This document shows, in pieces, positions 22,211-50,756 of a stretch of 64,000 bases of DNA. The stretch spans positions 6,762,001-6,826,000 of the forward strand of contig NZ_FNSO01000004.1 in the NCBI RefSeq assembly GCF_900105945.1, written 5' to 3'. A program made the position numbers and the translations under genes. Numbering within the stretch: position 1 is the stretch's first letter; each line of letters starts with the position of its first letter. The notes beneath the pieces were generated by a model. The model did no database searches, had not been told where the DNA came from, and was given only the letters and a program-made list of their open reading frames with translations. The DNA comes from Amycolatopsis tolypomycina (GTDB lineage Bacteria > Actinomycetota > Actinomycetes > Mycobacteriales > Pseudonocardiaceae).

Positions 22211-23368
22211 TCAGGTGCCCGGCTGGTTGCGCGAGCGCAGCCGCGGGACGATCGAGACCACCGCCGCGAAGACCAGGCCGATCCCGATGATCCAGAGCGC
22301 CGCGACGTCGTCGAACAGCGTCACCGACACCGCGCCGAACGCGAGGATCCCGGCCCACAGGTAGATCAGCATGACCGCGCGCCGCTGGGAGTGGCCGATC
22401 TCGAGCAGGCGGTGGTGGAGGTGCATCTTGTCCGCCGCGAACGGGCTTTCGCCGCGGCGGGTGCGGCGGATCACCGCCATGATCAGATCGAGCATCGGCA
22501 CGAACAGCACCGCCGCGACGACCACGAGCGGCGAGAGCAGCGCGATCGCGTCCTTGGCGCTGAACTGCGTGTACGGCACGCGCCCGGACGCCGACGTCGT
22601 CGCGCCGGCGAGCATCAGGCCGATCATCATCGAGCCGGAGTCGCCCATGAAGATCTTCGCGGGCTGGAAGTTGTACGGCAGGAAACCCAGACAGGCGCCG
22701 GCGAGCGTGGCCGCGATCAGCGCGGGCGGGTAGGTGCCGACGTCGCCGCCGGAGCTGTCGAGCAGGCCGAGGGAGAACGAGCAGGTGGCGGCGGCCGCGA
22801 TGAAGCCGAGGCCGCCGGCGAGCCCGTCGAGGCCGTCGACGAAGTTCATCGCGTTGACCATGACCACGACCATGACGACGGTGAGCAGCGCGCCCTGGTT
22901 CTTGTCGAGCACGAGCACCGAGCCGAACGAGCCGCCGGTGCCGCCCCACGGCACCCAGAACGACACCCACTGCACGCCGAAGATGACGAGGATGCCGGCG
23001 CACATGACCTGGCCGGCCAGCTTCGTCCAGGCGTCCAGCTCGAACCGGTCGTCGAGCGCGCCGATCAGGGAGATGACACCGGCCGCCAGCAGCACGCCGA
23101 CCGAGTCGAAGGAGGCGTCGAAGCCGTGCGACAGCGCGGGCAGCTGGTGGGCGAGGCCCATCGCGCCGGCGACGCCGAGGTAGATGCCGACCCCGCCCAT
23201 CCGCGGGATCGGGGCCACGTGGACGTCGCGCGCCCGGGGGTTGGCGATCGCGCCGACGCGGATCGCGACCCGCCGGACGACGCCGGTGAGCAGGTAGGTC
23301 ACGGCCGTCGCGGTCAGCGCGACGAGGATGTATTCCCGGATGGGGAGGAGACCGGATGTGGGCGGCAC
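22211..23368 (-). CDS. wecA: Undecaprenyl/decaprenyl-phosphate GlcNAc-1-phosphate transferase
   Basis: 385 residues, about ten or eleven membrane helices. Motifs of the MraY/WecA family are clear: GALDDRFELDAWTKLAGQ, VNAMNFVDGLDGLAGG, YNFQPAKIFMGDSGSM and the histidine motif ADKMHLHHRLLEIGHSQ. It starts lipid-linked glycan synthesis, in mycobacteria the arabinogalactan linker (Rv1302). It lies between sua5 and the atpI-like gene, the conserved position. GTG start at 23368. Confidence 0.92.
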   Translation of the reverse strand: MPPTSGLLPIREYILVALTATAVTYLLTGVVRRVAIRVGAIANPRARDVHVAPIPRMGGVGIYLGVAGAMGLAHQLPALSHGFDASFDSVGVLLAAGVISLIGALDDRFELDAWTKLAGQVMCAGILVIFGVQWVSFWVPWGGTGGSFGSVLVLDKNQGALLTVVMVVVMVNAMNFVDGLDGLAGGLGFIAAAATCSFSLGLLDSSGGDVGTYPPALIAATLAGACLGFLPYNFQPAKIFMGDSGSMMIGLMLAGATTSASGRVPYTQFSAKDAIALLSPLVVVAAVLFVPMLDLIMAVIRRTRRGESPFAADKMHLHHRLLEIGHSQRRAVMLIYLWAGILAFGAVSVTLFDDVAALWIIGIGLVFAAVVSIVPRLRSRNQPGT

Positions 23369-23442: not shown

Positions 23443-24093
23443 TCACGCCAACGATTCCGCGGGCACACCCAGCACCTCCGCGATGGCTTCCTTGCCCACC
23501 GCGCCCTCGCGCAGCACGACGGGTTCGGTGCCGGTGAGGTCCACGATGCTCGACGCGACGGGCGCACCGCTCGACCCGCCGTCGAGGTAGACGGCGACCG
23601 AGTCGCCGAGCTGTTCCTGCGCCTCCTGCGCGGTGCTGGCTGGCGGGCGGCCGGAGACGTTCGCGCTCGAGACGGCCATCGGGCCGACGTCCCGCAGCAG
23701 TTCCAGCGCGACGGGGTGCAGCGGCATCCGGAGCATGACGGTGCCGCGGGCGTCGCCGAGGTTCCACTGCAGGCTCGGCGCGTGCGGCAGCACGATGGAG
23801 AGGTCGCCGGGCCAGAAGGCTTCGATGAGCGCCCGCGCCTGCGGCGGCACGCCGAGCACCAGCCCGTCCACAGTGGACCAGGACCCGACGAGCACCCCGA
23901 CGGGCATGTCCGGCCCGCGGTTCTTGGCGCGCAGCAGCGCCTGGACGGCACCGGCGTCGAAGGCATCGGCACCGATCCCGTAGACGGTGTCGGTCGGCAG
24001 GACGACCAGCCGGCTCGACCGGACGGCCCCAGCCGCGGCGGCGAGCCCGTCGGCCCGGGTCTCCCGCTTGCTGCAGTCGTAGACCACGCTCAT
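23443..24093 (-). CDS. L-threonylcarbamoyladenylate synthase (Sua5/YrdC)
   Basis: 216 residues. The YrdC fold shows VVLPTDTVYGIGADAF, LLRAKNRGPDMPVGVLV, TVMLRMPLHP and PMAVSSANVSG. It makes threonylcarbamoyl-AMP for the t6A modification of tRNAs reading ANN codons. It has the short YrdC-like form without the extra Sua5 domain. The ATG at 24093 starts the usual family N-terminus; no strong Shine-Dalgarno is seen. Rv1301 position. Confidence 0.93.
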   Translation of the reverse strand: MSVVYDCSKRETRADGLAAAAGAVRSSRLVVLPTDTVYGIGADAFDAGAVQALLRAKNRGPDMPVGVLVGSWSTVDGLVLGVPPQARALIEAFWPGDLSIVLPHAPSLQWNLGDARGTVMLRMPLHPVALELLRDVGPMAVSSANVSGRPPASTAQEAQEQLGDSVAVYLDGGSSGAPVASSIVDLTGTEPVVLREGAVGKEAIAEVLGVPAESLA

Positions 24094-24280
24094 GGGGGCC
24101 AAGGGTAGTCCGGCCGGTCGGGCGGGCGTTCGCCGCGTCACACCGCCCCGCCCCTTCGCCCGGCCCACCCCACTCCGGCTCGGCCCGCCCCGGCTCGGCC
24201 GCCCCACCGCTTCGCTCCGGCTCACCGGTCGGGGTGCCGGCCTCCGGCCGAAGTCCGCCGGCGCCGGACACTGCGGCGAG

Positions 24281-24406
24281 CATCTCGCGTGTCGTCCCGC
24301 CAATCACGTGTGATGCCCCTCCAATCACACGCGATGCCCCTCCAATCACGCGCGATGCCCGCTTGATCACGGCTGATGCCCGCTCGATCACGGGTGATGC
24401 CCCCAC
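24281..24406. repeat. 21-bp tandem repeats, six units
   Basis: Six consecutive 21-nt units with consensus close to RATCACGCGTGATGCCC plus four variable bases; units start at 24281, 24302, 24323, 24344, 24365 and 24386. Most contain an ATCAC/GTGAT inverted repeat. The first is degenerate. The same 7-codon-long unit recurs inverted at 32819-32902. Confidence 0.85.
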
Positions 24407-24576
24407 CAGGCCGGGTTCGGACTGCCGATCGCGGCGCACACCTGCGTTCCGCGGCGGCGGGAGACTCATGTTCACCCAGGTCAACCGGGGCTGCACGCCG
24501 GCCACCCGCGCCACGGACCCAGGGCCTCGGGCGGCCGATCCGGAGACGCAGCCGGCCCGAAAGACGGAGGCCGCCG

Positions 24577-24627
24577 CGGGGGCGCCCCCCGTCTTCCACG
24601 CTACCGGCGACCACCGACAGTTTCCGG
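24577..24627 (-). promoter_or_regulatory. Dispersed repeat with RecA-NDp/PafBC-type promoter motif, copy 1
   Basis: Read on the minus strand it gives TGTCGGTG, 8 nt, then TAGCGT, matching the mycobacterial DNA-damage promoter consensus tTGTCRGTG-N8-TAnnnT. The GC palindrome GGGGGGCGCCCCC follows. The first position of the consensus is C here. It points leftward to sua5, about 490 bp away, with no nearer gene. Confidence 0.6.
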
Positions 24628-24810
24628 CGGCCGCCGGATGCACGGCCCGAACTTGTCCACAACGCCCGCCGGCGACTGACAACCGGCCAGACTTTCGTCG
24701 TGCGGCAAGCGGGTAAACCTCCCGTCGGGACAGAACTCCGGCAGTGCGGCTCAATACGGTCGATCTCCGGGAACCACCACCCCCGTGGGTTCCCAGTGAA
24801 GGAGCCGCAC

Positions 24811-26784
24811 ATGCGCCCCAGAACCCCGAAAGCGCTCGCCCTGCTCGCCGCCGTCACCGTGCTCACCGGGGTCGGGACCGGGACCGCCGCGGCGGAGCCG
24901 CTCACCCGTGGCTGGCCCGCCCCGATCGACGCCGCCCGGTGGGAGAACCAGGACCACATGACCTGGTCCGACTACCGCAAGGTCCCCGGCACGAACTGGG
25001 CCGACCCGAACCTCAAGCCGACCCAGCGCACCTTCAAGGGCGCCGTCGTCCTCGCCGACTACCCGGACCAGGACTTCGTCGTCACGCAGCCCGCGCGTTC
25101 GACCGTCTTCGGCAACCCCGCGCCCACCGCCGCGAACATCCCGCGGGACGACGTCGCGCAGTACTACGAGGACTTCCTCAACAAGCCCGTGGCCCTCAAC
25201 AACGGCCACACGATCAACGAGTACTGGATGGAGGACTCCGGCGGCCGGTTCGGCGTGCAGCTGACCGCGTTCGGGCCGTACCGGATGCCCGGGAAGTCCT
25301 TCGAATACGGCATGGAGTTCCAGCCGAACGCCTGCCCGCCCGGCGCGAACTGCACCCGTGACATCCGCAAGGACGCCGGCGACGCCTGGCGCGCCGAAGT
25401 CGGCGACACCGCGAACCAGTTCGACTTCGTCTTCTACCTCTCCGCCGGCCAGGACGAGAGCTCGACGTGGCAGGAGTTCGGCGAGATGAAGTTCGGGACG
25501 AAGGAGAACGTCCCCGACAGCTTCGGCCCGCCGAACCACGACCTGCCCAACTACGCGGCGACCCGGTACGTGCCGTGGACGTCGTGGGCGTCGGCCGCCA
25601 GCATCTGGCCGAACGCCCAGAACGGCAGCTCGGTGCAGGCCGAGAGCTCCGGGCAGTCGACCTACGCCCACGAGTTCAGCCATATCCTTGGCATCGGCGA
25701 CAACTACAACAACCCGTTCGGGAACCCGCCGTCGCGCGCCTACAGCGGGCCGTGGGACATGCTGTCGCGCGGCACGTTCAACGGGCCGGGCGGCCCGCAC
25801 ACGCGCTGGCAGATCCCGGCGACGCAGGGCAGCTCGATGGGTGCCCAGCACCAGCTGCGCAACAAGCTGAAGCTCGGCATCGTCGATCCGGCGGACGTGC
25901 TGCAGCTCGACCGCAACGAGCTGGCGAAGACCGGCCCGGTGTCGGTCCGGCTCACCGCGCGCGAAACCGAAGCGCAGCCGGGCGCGTTCACCGGCCTGAA
26001 CATCAAGCTCGCCGGCGGCGACAAGGCGCCGAAGTGCGACCGGGCGACGGACCCGTTCTGCGACGGCGGCGGCTACGACAACTACACGGTCGAGGTCGTC
26101 GACCGGATGGGCGCGGACTCGTTCACGCCCGATTCGGGCGTGCTGATCACGAAGACGAAGAACAAGGACAACGCCCCGTTCGACTGGGTGATCGACGCGA
26201 ACCCGCAGGACATCGGCATCACCGACTACACGAAGCCGGACGGGACGCCGGTGAAGATCACCATCGGTGACTACCGGCAGCTCAACGACGCCCTGTTCAA
26301 GGCGGGTACGGAGGCGGCCAGCCCGTACGAGTACACGGACGAGGCGAACCGCCTGCGCTTCCTGATCACCGACCTGGCGAGGGATCGCCGCGGCATCCTG
26401 TCGTACACGGTGACGGTGACGTCGCTCGACGGGTCGGGCAGCCAGTCCCGCGGGGCGGCGCTGACCCCGGCCCTCCCGGCGATCGCCCGCGGCGGCCTGG
26501 CAACGTGCGACTTCGGCCTGCTCAACACGGGCTCGGCGCACGGCGCGAAGGCCCCGTACGACACGGACACGTACCGGCTGAGCGTGTCCACGGACGCCCG
26601 CGGCTGGGAGGTCCGCCTGCCGAACGAGCTGGCAACGGCGAAGTTCGGCGGCCACGCGAAGGTCGCGGCGTACGCGAAGCGCGGCCAGGGCGGCGACCTG
26701 GCGGCCCGGGTGAAGCTGACGGCGACATCGGTGAGCGACCCGTCGAAGACCGCGACGGCGAGCTGCACGGTGTTCGGCTTCTAG
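24811..26784 (+). CDS. Secreted M6-family metalloprotease (immune inhibitor A-like)
   Basis: 657 residues. An N-terminal signal peptide (LALLAAVTVLTGVGTGTAAAE, cut near residue 28) directs export. The zinc-binding HExxH is in YAHEFSHILGIGDNY (about residue 290), followed by a glycine-rich turn and MLSRGTF, the M6 layout. The C-terminal third is beta-rich and ends ASCTVFGF. AAGGAG sits 6 nt before the ATG at 24811. It is inserted between prmC and sua5, in the opposite direction to the surrounding housekeeping genes. A hairpin follows the stop by a few bases. Confidence 0.88.
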   Translation: MRPRTPKALALLAAVTVLTGVGTGTAAAEPLTRGWPAPIDAARWENQDHMTWSDYRKVPGTNWADPNLKPTQRTFKGAVVLADYPDQDFVVTQPARSTVFGNPAPTAANIPRDDVAQYYEDFLNKPVALNNGHTINEYWMEDSGGRFGVQLTAFGPYRMPGKSFEYGMEFQPNACPPGANCTRDIRKDAGDAWRAEVGDTANQFDFVFYLSAGQDESSTWQEFGEMKFGTKENVPDSFGPPNHDLPNYAATRYVPWTSWASAASIWPNAQNGSSVQAESSGQSTYAHEFSHILGIGDNYNNPFGNPPSRAYSGPWDMLSRGTFNGPGGPHTRWQIPATQGSSMGAQHQLRNKLKLGIVDPADVLQLDRNELAKTGPVSVRLTARETEAQPGAFTGLNIKLAGGDKAPKCDRATDPFCDGGGYDNYTVEVVDRMGADSFTPDSGVLITKTKNKDNAPFDWVIDANPQDIGITDYTKPDGTPVKITIGDYRQLNDALFKAGTEAASPYEYTDEANRLRFLITDLARDRRGILSYTVTVTSLDGSGSQSRGAALTPALPAIARGGLATCDFGLLNTGSAHGAKAPYDTDTYRLSVSTDARGWEVRLPNELATAKFGGHAKVAAYAKRGQGGDLAARVKLTATSVSDPSKTATASCTVFGF

Positions 26785-26792
26785 CGCCCCAG

Positions 26793-26829
26793 GGCGGCCT
26801 TCGGTGCGGCTGACGCGCCGAAGGCCGCC
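26793..26829 (+). terminator. Hairpin after the M6 protease gene
   Basis: GGCGGCCTTCGG pairs with CCGAAGGCCGCC, and the inner GTGCG/CGCGC extends the stem around a GCTGA loop. It begins 8 nt after the stop. There is no T-run, as is common for high-GC actinobacteria. Confidence 0.65.
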
Positions 26830-26898
26830 TTGTGACGGCCACATCCGGGGGGCTTGGCCGGAGTTGTGGACAACTCCGGGCCCCGGCCGGATCGGGCC

Positions 26899-26949
26899 TG
26901 GAATTGTCGGTGCCCGCCGGTAGCGTGGAAGACGGGGGGCGCCCCCGCG
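26899..26949 (+). promoter_or_regulatory. Dispersed repeat with RecA-NDp/PafBC-type promoter motif, copy 2
   Basis: On the plus strand it reads TTGTCGGTG, CCCGCCGG, TAGCGT: an exact match to tTGTCRGTG-N8-TAnnnT, followed by the GGGGGGCGCCCCC palindrome. It is inverted relative to the copies at 24577 and 50705. It points right into the prmC 3' repeats; no plus-strand gene follows until 28386. Confidence 0.62.
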
Positions 26950-26972
26950 GGCTGGGGCTGCTGCGGCAGCTG

Positions 26973-27310
26973 CTCAGCCCAGCCGGCGCGCTCTGACGAA
27001 CCGGGCCCAGCCCGCCAGACCCGCACGATCACGGCCGCTGCTCACCCAGCCGGCACGCCGCGACGAACCAGACGCCACCCCGCCACGCCCGCACGATCAC
27101 GGCGGCGGCTGCTCAACCGGCAAGCCGCGGCGAACCAAGCCCGGCCCGCGCCGGGCCCGCATGATCACAGCGGCCGCTGCTCACCCAGCCGGCACGCCGC
27201 GACGAACCAGACCCACCCCGCCACGCCCGCGGCCACGGCGGCAGCCCACCCCAGCCACCCCGCCAGCAGCCGCTCACCCCAGCCGGCGCGCCGTGACGAA
27301 CCGGGCCCGG
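26973..27310 (-). repeat. Tandem copies of the prmC 3' end
   Basis: About 35 bp covering the last codons of prmC (the sequence for RFVTARRLG and the stop) reappear four times downstream of the gene, near 27181-27211, 27113-27141, 27042-27071 and 26973-27005, with a period of roughly 68-71 bp after a first step of about 90 bp. Between them lie related CCCGCACGATCACGGC segments. Confidence 0.75.
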
Positions 27311-28140
27311 CCGGTCAGGTCCGCGTGGTCCTCCACCCCCGTCAGCACCCGCCGGGCCCTGACCAGGGCCGGGACCGCCGAACCGTGCGTGTCGTCGTGC
27401 TCGATCGCCAGGCCGCCGCCGGGGCGCAGCAGCCGCGCTCCCGCCGCGATCGCGTGGCGGATCACCGCCAGGCCGCTCTCCTCCGCGAACACCGCGCGGG
27501 GTGGGTCGTGCTCCGCCACCTCCGGGGGCACCGGGGTGCCCTCCGGGACGTACGGCGGGTTGCACAGCACCAGGTCGACCAGGCCGTCGAGCTCGGCGAA
27601 CATCGTCGGGTCGCCGATGTCGCCCGAATACAGCCTGATCGGGGTGTTGCCCGCGTCCGCGTGGACGTCCGCGTTGTGGCGGGCCCAGGCCAGGGCCTGC
27701 GGGTCGATGTCCACCGCGTACACCACCGCGTCCGGGCGGGCGTTGGCCACCGCCAGCGCCAGCGCGCCCGAGCCCGTGCACAGGTCCACCACCACCGGGA
27801 ACTCGCGGCCCTGGAGGAACTTGACCCCCCACTCGAGCAGCAGCTCGGTCTCCGGCCGCGGGACGAACACCCCGGCCCCGACCGCGACCGTGATGTCGCC
27901 GAGGGCCGCCCAGCCCGTCAGGTACTGCAGGGGGATGCGCTTGGCGCGCTGCTGGACGAGCTGGCCGATGGCCTCGATGACCGGCGGGTCGACCAGCGGC
28001 ACCATCGGCAGCCGGCCGCGTTCGACCCCGAGCACGTGCGCGGCGATCACCTCGGCGTCGAAGCGCGGCGAGGCGACGCCCGCGCGCTCGAGGATCCGGG
28101 TGGCCTCGATGATGGCCAGGCGCAGCGGCTGCCGATTCAC
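27274..28140 (-). CDS. prmC: Peptide chain release factor N5-glutamine methyltransferase
   Basis: 288 residues. An N-terminal helical domain precedes a Rossmann methyltransferase domain with VVDLCTGSGALALAVA and the substrate motif LVLCNPPYVP around residue 190. It methylates the glutamine of the GGQ motif in release factors, and prfA lies about 5 kb upstream in the same direction. GTG start at 28140 with AAGGAC upstream. Its last codons are the source of the downstream tandem repeats. Confidence 0.92.
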   Translation of the reverse strand: MNRQPLRLAIIEATRILERAGVASPRFDAEVIAAHVLGVERGRLPMVPLVDPPVIEAIGQLVQQRAKRIPLQYLTGWAALGDITVAVGAGVFVPRPETELLLEWGVKFLQGREFPVVVDLCTGSGALALAVANARPDAVVYAVDIDPQALAWARHNADVHADAGNTPIRLYSGDIGDPTMFAELDGLVDLVLCNPPYVPEGTPVPPEVAEHDPPRAVFAEESGLAVIRHAIAAGARLLRPGGGLAIEHDDTHGSAVPALVRARRVLTGVEDHADLTGRARFVTARRLG

Positions 28141-49682: not shown

Positions 49683-50279
49683 TCACACCCGGCCGCCGAG
49701 ACGGTCGGCGAGCGTGCGAAGTGCCCGGTAGGCGGCGGTGCGGACGGCGCCGGGGCGCTTCCCCAGCACGGCCGCGGCCGCCTTGGCGTCGAGCCCGACC
49801 ACGGCCCGCAGCACCACCGCCTCGGCCTGGTCACGCGGCAGCGTCGCGATCAGCGCGAGTGCCGCGTCGGTCGCCGTCGCCTCGATGGCCGCCCCGGCCG
49901 TGTCGTCGGGCGCGGGCCGCTCGGGAAACCACTCCGCCGGCGCTTCGGCGACCGGGCGGCGGCGCCGGTGCCGCAGGTGGTCCAGCGCCCGGTTCCGGCC
50001 GATCGTCGCGGTCCACGCGCGGAAGCCGTCCGCGTCGCCGCGGAACGAGGCCAGGTCGCGGGTGATCTGCAGCCACGCTTCGGAGGCGACGTCCTCGGCG
50101 TCCTGTCCGACCAGGACCCGCAGGTAGCGGCACAGGCCGGGCTGCACCGACCGGTACAGCAGGCGGAACGCGTCCTCGTCGCCGCGTTGCGCCCGCGCCA
50201 GCGTCGCCGAGAGGTCGTCGACGGGCTCCACGGGCGTACGCCGAGCACGGTTAGGGACCGACTCCAGCACCACACGCAT
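49683..50279 (-). CDS. ECF-type RNA polymerase sigma factor
   Basis: 198 residues. Region 2 reads DEDAFRLLYRSVQPGLCRYL and DVASEAWLQITRDLASF; region 4 is LPRDQAEAVVLRAVVGLDAK, then AAVLGKRPGAVRTAAYRAL. No extra domains. The downstream gene encodes a likely membrane anti-sigma. ATG at 50279 sits right after AAAGG; the GTG two codons later is better spaced. Regulon unknown. Confidence 0.88.
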   Translation of the reverse strand: MRVVLESVPNRARRTPVEPVDDLSATLARAQRGDEDAFRLLYRSVQPGLCRYLRVLVGQDAEDVASEAWLQITRDLASFRGDADGFRAWTATIGRNRALDHLRHRRRRPVAEAPAEWFPERPAPDDTAGAAIEATATDAALALIATLPRDQAEAVVLRAVVGLDAKAAAAVLGKRPGAVRTAAYRALRTLADRLGGRV

Positions 50280-50351: not shown

Positions 50352-50684
50352 CTACCCGGCGCGCTCGATGTGGAAGTACCCGACCGGTTCGGGGCCTTCG
50401 GTGATGACGACGACGGTGCCCGGTTCGACCCGGAACGCGCCCGAGTTCTCGACCGTCAGCCAGCGCCCCTCCGCCGCGGACACCGAGGCGCCGGGCTCGA
50501 AGCCGCGCAGGACGAAGGACGCCAGACCGGTGACGGCCGTGTTCGGGGGCACGAAGGCGTTCGCGGCGTAGGCGTGGCCCTCGGCCGGCTGTGGTGGGCC
50601 GGTCGTGCGGCCGCCCTGGGCCGGGGTGAGCCAGACGACCCGGCCGCGGAAGGGGAACGGGGTGTCGTTCGGGAGCTTCGTCAC
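50352..50684 (-). CDS. Small protein resembling EF-Tu C-terminal domain
   Basis: 110 residues, beta-rich. RGRVVWLTPAQGGRTTGP and GTVVVITEGPEPVGYFHIE resemble strands of the EF-Tu domain III fold as found in stand-alone small actinobacterial proteins; this is a weak, visual match. The GTG at 50684 is chosen; another GTG lies at 50699. Codons further upstream come from a dispersed repeat and are unlikely to be coding. That repeat supplies a DNA-damage-type promoter just upstream. Confidence 0.55.
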   Translation of the reverse strand: MTKLPNDTPFPFRGRVVWLTPAQGGRTTGPPQPAEGHAYAANAFVPPNTAVTGLASFVLRGFEPGASVSAAEGRWLTVENSGAFRVEPGTVVVITEGPEPVGYFHIERAG

Positions 50685-50704
50685 CGGGGCATTGTGCACG
50701 GGCG

Positions 50705-50756
50705 CGGGGCGCCGCCCCCCGACTTCCACGCTACCGGTGGGCACCGACAATTTCGG
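50705..50756 (-). promoter_or_regulatory. Dispersed repeat with RecA-NDp/PafBC-type promoter motif, copy 3
   Basis: On the minus strand it reads TTGTCGGTG, CCCACCGG, TAGCGT, an exact match to tTGTCRGTG-N8-TAnnnT. The -10-like element is at 50733-50728, about 45 bp before the GTG of the small gene. This is the only one of three copies placed directly before a gene. Confidence 0.65.

Follow-up and report, generated by a model that had tools for sequence, protein, structure and literature searches.

Among the described systems the closest are the DNA damage promoters of mycobacteria and other actinobacteria known as RecA-NDp or PafBC promoters. In mycobacteria PafBC is activated by single-stranded DNA (ssDNA) and directs the sigmaA polymerase to promoters carrying a -26 motif, as described in PMC11804915 (further literature: PMC6789036, PMC5087735, and PMC2897130), and the 9-mer TTGTCCACA appears in Table 1 of PMC4285127 as the DnaA box of high affinity in M. 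tuberculosis and S. coelicolor. The dispersed repeats analysed in the present work have in common with the PafBC promoters the core TGTCGGTG-N8-TAnnnT, a PafC-type WYL protein pair encoded in the same genome, and the occurrence of the motif at repair genes; however, the described promoters precede the genes which they drive, whereas the repeats are dispersed and mostly point, in antisense, at the 3' end of an adjacent gene and, unlike these promoters, possess a CGGGGG start region, a tail module, and, in a quarter to a third of copies, a DnaA box. The 9-mer of this box is identical to that of the two species named above, but here, in many of the intergenic copies, one or two boxes are spaced by helical turns from a promoter of the damage type.

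Several families of short repeats are also comparable. The Correia elements of Neisseria combine a promoter with a binding site for a protein in a short intergenic repeat and resemble the present repeat in all three respects; here, however, no terminal inverted repeats were noticed, the promoter is of the damage-response type, and the site is a DnaA box. The REP/BIME-type repeats are likewise short, intergenic, present in many copies, provided with a GC palindrome, and located near gene 3' ends, but the conserved core here is a directional promoter and the palindromes are variable or, in one type (type B), absent. Intrinsic terminators share the location at gene 3' ends and the GC-rich palindrome of types A and C, while the family has no general excess of folding, type B is palindrome-less, and the core is conserved as a promoter. 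For the TRIT-type terminators of mycobacteria no sequence for comparison was found in the literature searched, and spread of the repeat from HNH/DUF222 genes (13E12-type) was considered as a possible origin. Promoter class and DnaA box are familiar separately; neither a paper on the combination of PafBC with a DnaA box nor a description of such a repeat was found in the open-access literature searched, most subscription journals being outside its scope.

The window, that is, the whole analysed stretch of 64,000 nucleotides of Amycolatopsis tolypomycina DNA, contains the sequence TGTCGGTG-N8-TAGCGT with a GC palindrome in triplicate (24574-24619, 26905-26950, and 50703-50749). The pattern TGTCGGTGN8TANNNT with zero mismatches is found in it exactly three times, at 24598-24619 (minus strand), 26905-26926 (plus strand), and 50728-50749 (minus strand), and when up to two mismatches are permitted the window yields 16 matches against a mean of 5.66 and a maximum of 12 in shuffled sequences, with 0 of 100 shuffles reaching 16. 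The pairwise identity is 49/54 for copies 1 and 2, 44/54 for copies 1 and 3, and 46/54 for copies 2 and 3, which confirms the three near-identical segments reported in the initial annotation. The RecA-NDp/PafBC consensus TTGTCRGTG-N8-TAnnnT, to which that annotation had assigned all of them, is matched in full by copies 2 and 3, in which the element together with its preceding base reads TTGTCGGTG; copy 1 deviates from it by a C in place of the first T.

In copy 1 the -26 element TGTCGGTG, PafBC-type by motif match (24612..24619, minus strand), is followed after an 8-bp spacer by the -10 hexamer TAGCGT (24598..24603, minus strand, also by motif match) and by the GC palindrome CGGGGGGCGCCCCCGCGG (24574..24591) near the predicted transcript start. 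Upstream of it, starting 42 bp before the -26 element, lies the DnaA-box sequence TTGTCCACA (24653..24661, plus strand), which in the promoter direction reads TGTGGACAA. Copy 2 has the same arrangement on the other strand, with motif matches for the -26 element TGTCGGTG at 26905..26912 and for the -10 hexamer TAGCGT at 26921..26926 (both plus strand), the GC palindrome at 26933..26950, and the box TTGTCCACA at 26865..26873 (minus strand), starting 40 bp before the -26 element. Copy 3 consists, again by motif match, of the -26 element TGTCGGTG (50742..50749, minus strand) and the -10 hexamer TAGCGT (50728..50733, minus strand) with the palindrome variant GGGGGGCGGCGCCCC (50703..50721), and no DnaA box with 0-1 mismatch is present in the 130 bp upstream of it. 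The boxes beside copies 1 and 2, absent from the initial annotation, are the only two exact occurrences of TTGTCCACA in the window. Copies 1 and 2 together make up an inverted repeat of 55 bp (left arm 24574..24628, partner 26896-26950, 91% complementary) that flanks a gene for a Peptidase_M6-like protein (24796..26784, plus strand). A known RNA family was considered for the region 24000-27500 and rejected, both Rfam matches obtained there being below the gathering scores.

In the host genome as a whole (10.36 Mb, four contigs) the pattern TGTCGGTGN8TANNNT gave 92 exact matches and the reversed control pattern gave 0. Together with one TGTCAGTG copy this makes 93 sites, 43 of which possess the repeat tail and 50 of which do not. 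The tailed copies were divided into 27 of type A (CGGGGG and then GCGCCCCCGCGG or similar), 8 of type B (CTGCTC, devoid of a palindrome), 7 of type C (CCGGAGGCC or similar), and 1 other. A search for the repeat itself, with the -10 hexamer open except for its final T and two mismatches allowed, counted 49 own-genome matches, and further copies were found in other Pseudonocardiaceae, so that the repeat is indeed dispersed, as had been claimed from the window. Only 6 of the 49 copies lie in the 3.6 Mb between 1.7 and 5.3 Mb of contig C4, a density approximately four times lower than elsewhere. The copies at C2:811879 and C4:7558223 have identical sequence around the element and oppose the same protein, which is either a segmental duplication or an assembly overlap. 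In 5 of the 8 own-genome type B copies (C2:811879, C3:12241, C4:6543750, C4:7132639, and C4:7558223, two of these being the identical loci) the opposed gene terminates precisely 16 bp past the -10 hexamer, its TGA stop codon lying within the CTGCTCA tail.

Within the family Pseudonocardiaceae matches were obtained in 62 of 297 genomes and 16 of 46 genera, where singletons may be chance, and the control gave 0 matches. At the level of the order 28 of 397 genomes had a match, mostly in the same family, several singletons looking like chance, and two genomes of another family contained 7 and 5 copies. In the genus 23 of 60 genomes matched the pattern with variable spacer. Among the matches listed the hosts include Amycolatopsis, Actinophytocola, Actinokineospora, Lentzea, and Rhodococcus rhodnii, most of the named ones being Amycolatopsis, with A. 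rifamycinica and A. vancoresmycina among them. No match to the repeat was found in plasmids by blastn, and 3 matching stretches were present in the viral collection.

The conservation of the promoter core was estimated with its parts left open in turn. With bases 1-5 of the -10 hexamer open, TA was present in 49/49 own-genome matches with nine different middles, and the final T, which was set in the pattern with a mismatch permitted, was also found in 49/49. With the -26 element open except for "not A" at one base, GTC was present in 39/39 matches and GTCGGTG in 34/39, and with the spacer open over 4-12 bp in the 60 genomes of the genus it was exactly 8 in every match among the matches listed; the loss of this spacing in genome copies, named in the initial annotation as a ground for refutation, was not observed. 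Across genera 186 33-mers were compared, picked by hand from the family and order matches listed, with exclusion of the own-genome rows and of the order rows with one odd match each that were taken as chance (G026, G083, G305, G390, G448, G491, G499, G515, G518, G528, G556, and G562). In this set -11A was kept in 177/186 and -12T in 143/186 sequences. An extended -10 TG was found in 25 of the 43 sequences that had lost -12T and in 8 of the 143 others (pooled Fisher p 5e-13), and the same link permuted within genomes gave p ~0.01 with 8 informative genomes; the signal is mostly one between lineages. The presence of a predicted RecA-NDp/PafBC-type promoter core on the dispersed repeat is supported by these data.

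The same motif in the tail-less form precedes, or lies at, the predicted starts of the genes for UvrA, UvrB, UvrC, LigA, RecN, RadA, DNA polymerase IV, and a DEDD exonuclease (protein models above the cut-offs), and it is also located before the genes for a DinG/YoaA-like helicase and a RarA-like ATPase (both models below the cut-offs) and for a beta-clamp paralogue, PhoH, and a PD-(D/E)XK nuclease; other tail-less matches precede genes with no evident repair role. Genes were predicted with a simple codon-usage finder, whose start falls inside the motif for the DEDD exonuclease, ligA, recN, uvrB, and the PD-(D/E)XK nuclease and 125 bp away for uvrA. In the host genome this motif very likely acts as the promoter of the damage response. 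The beta-clamp (DnaN-like) paralogue gene at C4:7976453 starts 6 bp past its damage-type promoter. An adjacent WYL/WCX pair is encoded at C4:3252086-3253269, the second protein possessing an HTH_PafC domain, with tatA as the next gene, an order which we take to be that of a PafC-type WYL pair; the pair had no NCBIfam match, and pafA was not recognised in the stretch read around it.

The commonest 9-mer in the region 16-130 bp upstream of 229 copies is TGTGGACAA, present in 47/229 against 3/229 in an equal downstream stretch; this set, taken without a filter for -11A, includes a few chance matches. In the set of 235 copies restricted to those with -11A the exact TTGTCCACA was present in 58/235 compared with 0.05 in mononucleotide shuffles, and with at most one mismatch in 81/235. 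In the main orientation the boxes start at -30/-31, -40 to -42, and -61/-62 relative to the -26 element, with singles at -70 and -93, and in the other orientation near -33, -50 to -52, and -62. When the copies were grouped into 117 flank clusters, one of which can contribute more than one box position, and a period of 10.5 bp was applied, the main orientation gave r 0.90 and p 6e-11 for 29 exact sites and r 0.85 and p 5e-15 for 45 sites with one mismatch allowed. The other orientation gave p 0.003 (exact) and 1e-5 (one mismatch) but was not specific for 10.5 bp, r being 0.63 at this period, 0.83 at 9, and 0.86 at 15. When each distinct box position was counted once, the p values were 0.0015 and 0.11. 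In the main orientation the predicted DnaA box thus keeps a constant helical phase relative to the promoter. Of the 50 tail-less matches 6 are accompanied by a box having one mismatch or none; three of these (C3:253702, C4:7006775, and C4:7884613) are diverged repeats by eye, and none belongs to the named repair genes of the host genome. Another of the six, at C2:194575, is the damage-type promoter of a gene for a YgjP-like metallopeptidase, with two phased boxes (-61 and -40) and no repeat tail.

The orientation of the copies to neighbouring genes was scored for 41 of the 43 repeats and 37 of the 50 other matches, the remainder being inside predicted genes. In the host genome the next gene in the promoter direction is antisense for 34 of the 41 tailed copies. 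In many species (202 copies in 111 clusters grouped by flank, 17 copies inside predicted genes being dropped) an antisense gene is faced at 82 of 111 independent loci (p 5e-7), and in tandem gaps 28 are directed against and 15 with the gene direction (p 0.066).

The sequence anatomy, the conservation, the orientation, the phasing, and the occurrence of the same motif before repair genes are established. The explanation which we favour with some confidence, on grounds of sequence comparison, is that of a compact regulatory repeat with a PafBC/sigmaA promoter, an optional DnaA input, and a mostly antisense non-coding output. In such a unit the promoter, the discriminator, and the tail would follow one another, preceded in a quarter to a third of copies by a putative DnaA box that keeps to one side of the helix, the promoter part comprising TGTCGGTG, the 8-bp spacer, and TAnnnT, after which the NGA discriminator and the CGGGGG start region are presumed to follow, with the GC palindrome or another short module as the tail part. 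Upon DNA damage the ssDNA-activated PafBC would recruit sigmaA-RNA polymerase to the repeat, as it does to its promoters in mycobacteria, and upstream-bound DnaA would tune the promoter according to replication state. Most copies would then give rise to a non-coding antisense transcript of the 3' end of the gene next to them, and a few, copy 3 and probably copy 1 among them, would act as promoters of a downstream gene. Transcription, its induction by damage, DnaA binding, and the effect on neighbours are what we infer from these features.

In relatives same-place copies were found at prmC, sua5, and purQ. Copy 2 is directed at the 3' end of prmC (27274..28140, minus strand), a gene found in 60 of 60 genus genomes, 30 loci of which were compared; among the 19 closest loci the gap contains an element aimed back at the prmC 3' end in 11 and no element in 8, and none was found in the 11 more distant loci of the 30. 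The tail types in this gap vary between relatives, the type B tail beginning on the prmC stop codon in two (L338 and L354), the arrangement seen in the type B copies of the host genome. The purQ loci, collected by protein and not by pattern, contain the element in 11 of the 30 loci shown, with TANNNT kept in 11/11 with four different middles (the -10 hexamer being read by eye) and a less strict -26 element (GTCGGTG in 8/11, by eye), and it is absent from 6 of the 17 closest relatives. Because 8/19 and 6/17 close relatives are devoid of it, the element is dispensable at prmC and purQ. Long near-perfect hairpins, for example with GAATGACTCATTC, are frequent at these sites in relatives without the element (L341, L348, L351, and L353 in the gap between prmC and the peptidase gene, and several of L324-L334 at the purQ 3' end) and are perhaps another dispersed repeat family. 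The copy-1 position, in the gap between the peptidase gene and sua5 and directed at sua5, is occupied in 10 of the 22 sequences compared. The peptidase gene has the opposite orientation in six compared genomes (G630, G194, G171, G223, G627, and G619), and since copies 1 and 2 are inverted relative to each other on either side of it, it may possibly have been inverted by recombination between them; of these six genomes one has the element, on the prmC side only.

The strong rival to the regulatory reading is that the unit is a small mobile or selfish intergenic repeat, whose promoter and box are its means of spreading or a fossil of its source and whose sites are tolerated insertions, and we consider it a tentative but real possibility. 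It agrees with the tandem and head-to-head copies (e.g., L259, L176, L172, and L027), with the patchy presence in the genus (23/60) and the family (62/297), with the presence and absence of the element and the differing tail types in the prmC gap (11/19 close loci), and with an apparent decayed element at the purQ 3' end of L312, where by eye the upstream part is still present with a divergent -26 region, the -10 hexamer and tail being gone. Convergent gaps contain 26 of the 41 repeats compared with 4 of the 31 window gaps of at least 60 bp, and because a copy in a convergent gap is antisense to its neighbour in either orientation, the placement may reflect a safe haven. However, at the prmC gap neither defined ends nor a target duplication could be made out by eye, many positions are common to species (50 flank clusters with at least two members, some of which are one locus fetched twice), the matches in plasmids and viruses are limited to the 3 viral stretches, and a fossil promoter is not expected to have its -10 hexamer, spacer, and box phase preserved in different genera. 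The same promoter activity is compatible with selfish spread and placement in safe havens.

It is unlikely, in our estimate, that the repeat serves the neighbouring gene as an intrinsic terminator or 3'-end hairpin and resembles a promoter on the opposite strand only incidentally. The location at gene 3' ends, the GC palindromes of type A followed by CGTTTTCC on the sense strand, the CCGGTA...TACCGG stem in type C and at purQ, the unrelated long hairpins at the same place in other relatives, and the folding of copy 1, better than that of shuffles (81 nt, z -2.84), would all suit this explanation; however, the family as a whole folds as its dinucleotide shuffles do, with a median sense-strand z of 0.05 for type A (n=27), 1.16 for type B (n=8), and -0.39 for type C (n=7), only 4 of the 43 copies have z < -2, and copy 2 has z +1.14. 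The T-run is short and variable. The palindrome is absent from type B, -11A persists in 125 of the 130 sequences that lack pairing with its potential stem partner, 29 of the 43 sequences that lost -12T are also unpaired at the stem position, and neither TGTCGGTG nor the N8 spacing nor the box phase is explained. The terminator explanation is therefore weakened by the lack of excess folding in the family, the folding of copy 1 and the location being what fits it. At purQ the box doubles as a hairpin arm, and TTGTCCACA as a mere terminator arm was considered and set aside as a general explanation because of the helical phase.

That the repeats simply drive the next co-directional gene upon damage, in line with the ready-made promoters of downstream genes suggested by the initial annotation, is quite improbable. 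It would suit copy 3, at 28-43 nt before possible start codons, and the copy-1 position, which in five relatives precedes sua5 by ~100 bp; however, only 1 of the 41 tailed copies has a co-directional start at 60 bp or less and 4 have one at 150 bp or less, against 25 of the 37 scored tail-less matches at 60 bp or less, and the next gene is antisense in most cases. Most copies thus do not precede a driven gene as the described PafBC promoters do, copy 3 and copy 1 in five relatives being those that fit, and this lowers the probability of an ordinary gene promoter, not that of the repeat working as a promoter.

The small gene after copy 3 (50352..50699, minus strand) has no Pfam match and possible GTG starts 28 and 43 nt past the -10 hexamer, and is followed by an ECF-type sigma gene (49683-50231). 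Copy 1 is directed at a gene of the sua5 type (L-threonylcarbamoyladenylate synthase; 23443..24093, minus strand), the nearest one on that side, with a wecA-like gene downstream of it (22211..23368, minus strand; best model below the curated cut-off). The distance from the copy-1 position to the aligned sua5 start is 99-121 bp in 5 relatives and 390-735 bp in the other 5 sequences, the window included. The initial annotation had suggested that copy 1 may be an orphan promoter, which the synteny at sua5 in these 5 relatives makes doubtful; possibly it drives an unseen RNA. The 21-bp tandem repeats between copy 1 and sua5 (within 24282-24403) and the diverged longer repeats between copy 2 and prmC (within 26966-27324) may explain a part of the longer distances in this genome.

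Beyond the compact regulatory repeat, a more extended and rather speculative reading is a genome-wide network gated by damage through PafBC and by replication state through DnaA, in which non-coding RNAs initiated at the G-run would be directed into gene 3' ends, and these RNAs or the R-loops that they form would play a role in replication stress, for example in clearing or priming at convergent gene ends. The repeats represent a natural set of predicted promoters with the DnaA site shifted by approximately whole helical turns. If the copies of the regulatory repeat fire, the damage response would gain dozens of non-coding, mostly antisense units that are absent from gene lists, and the phased DnaA boxes would link this response to the replication initiator.
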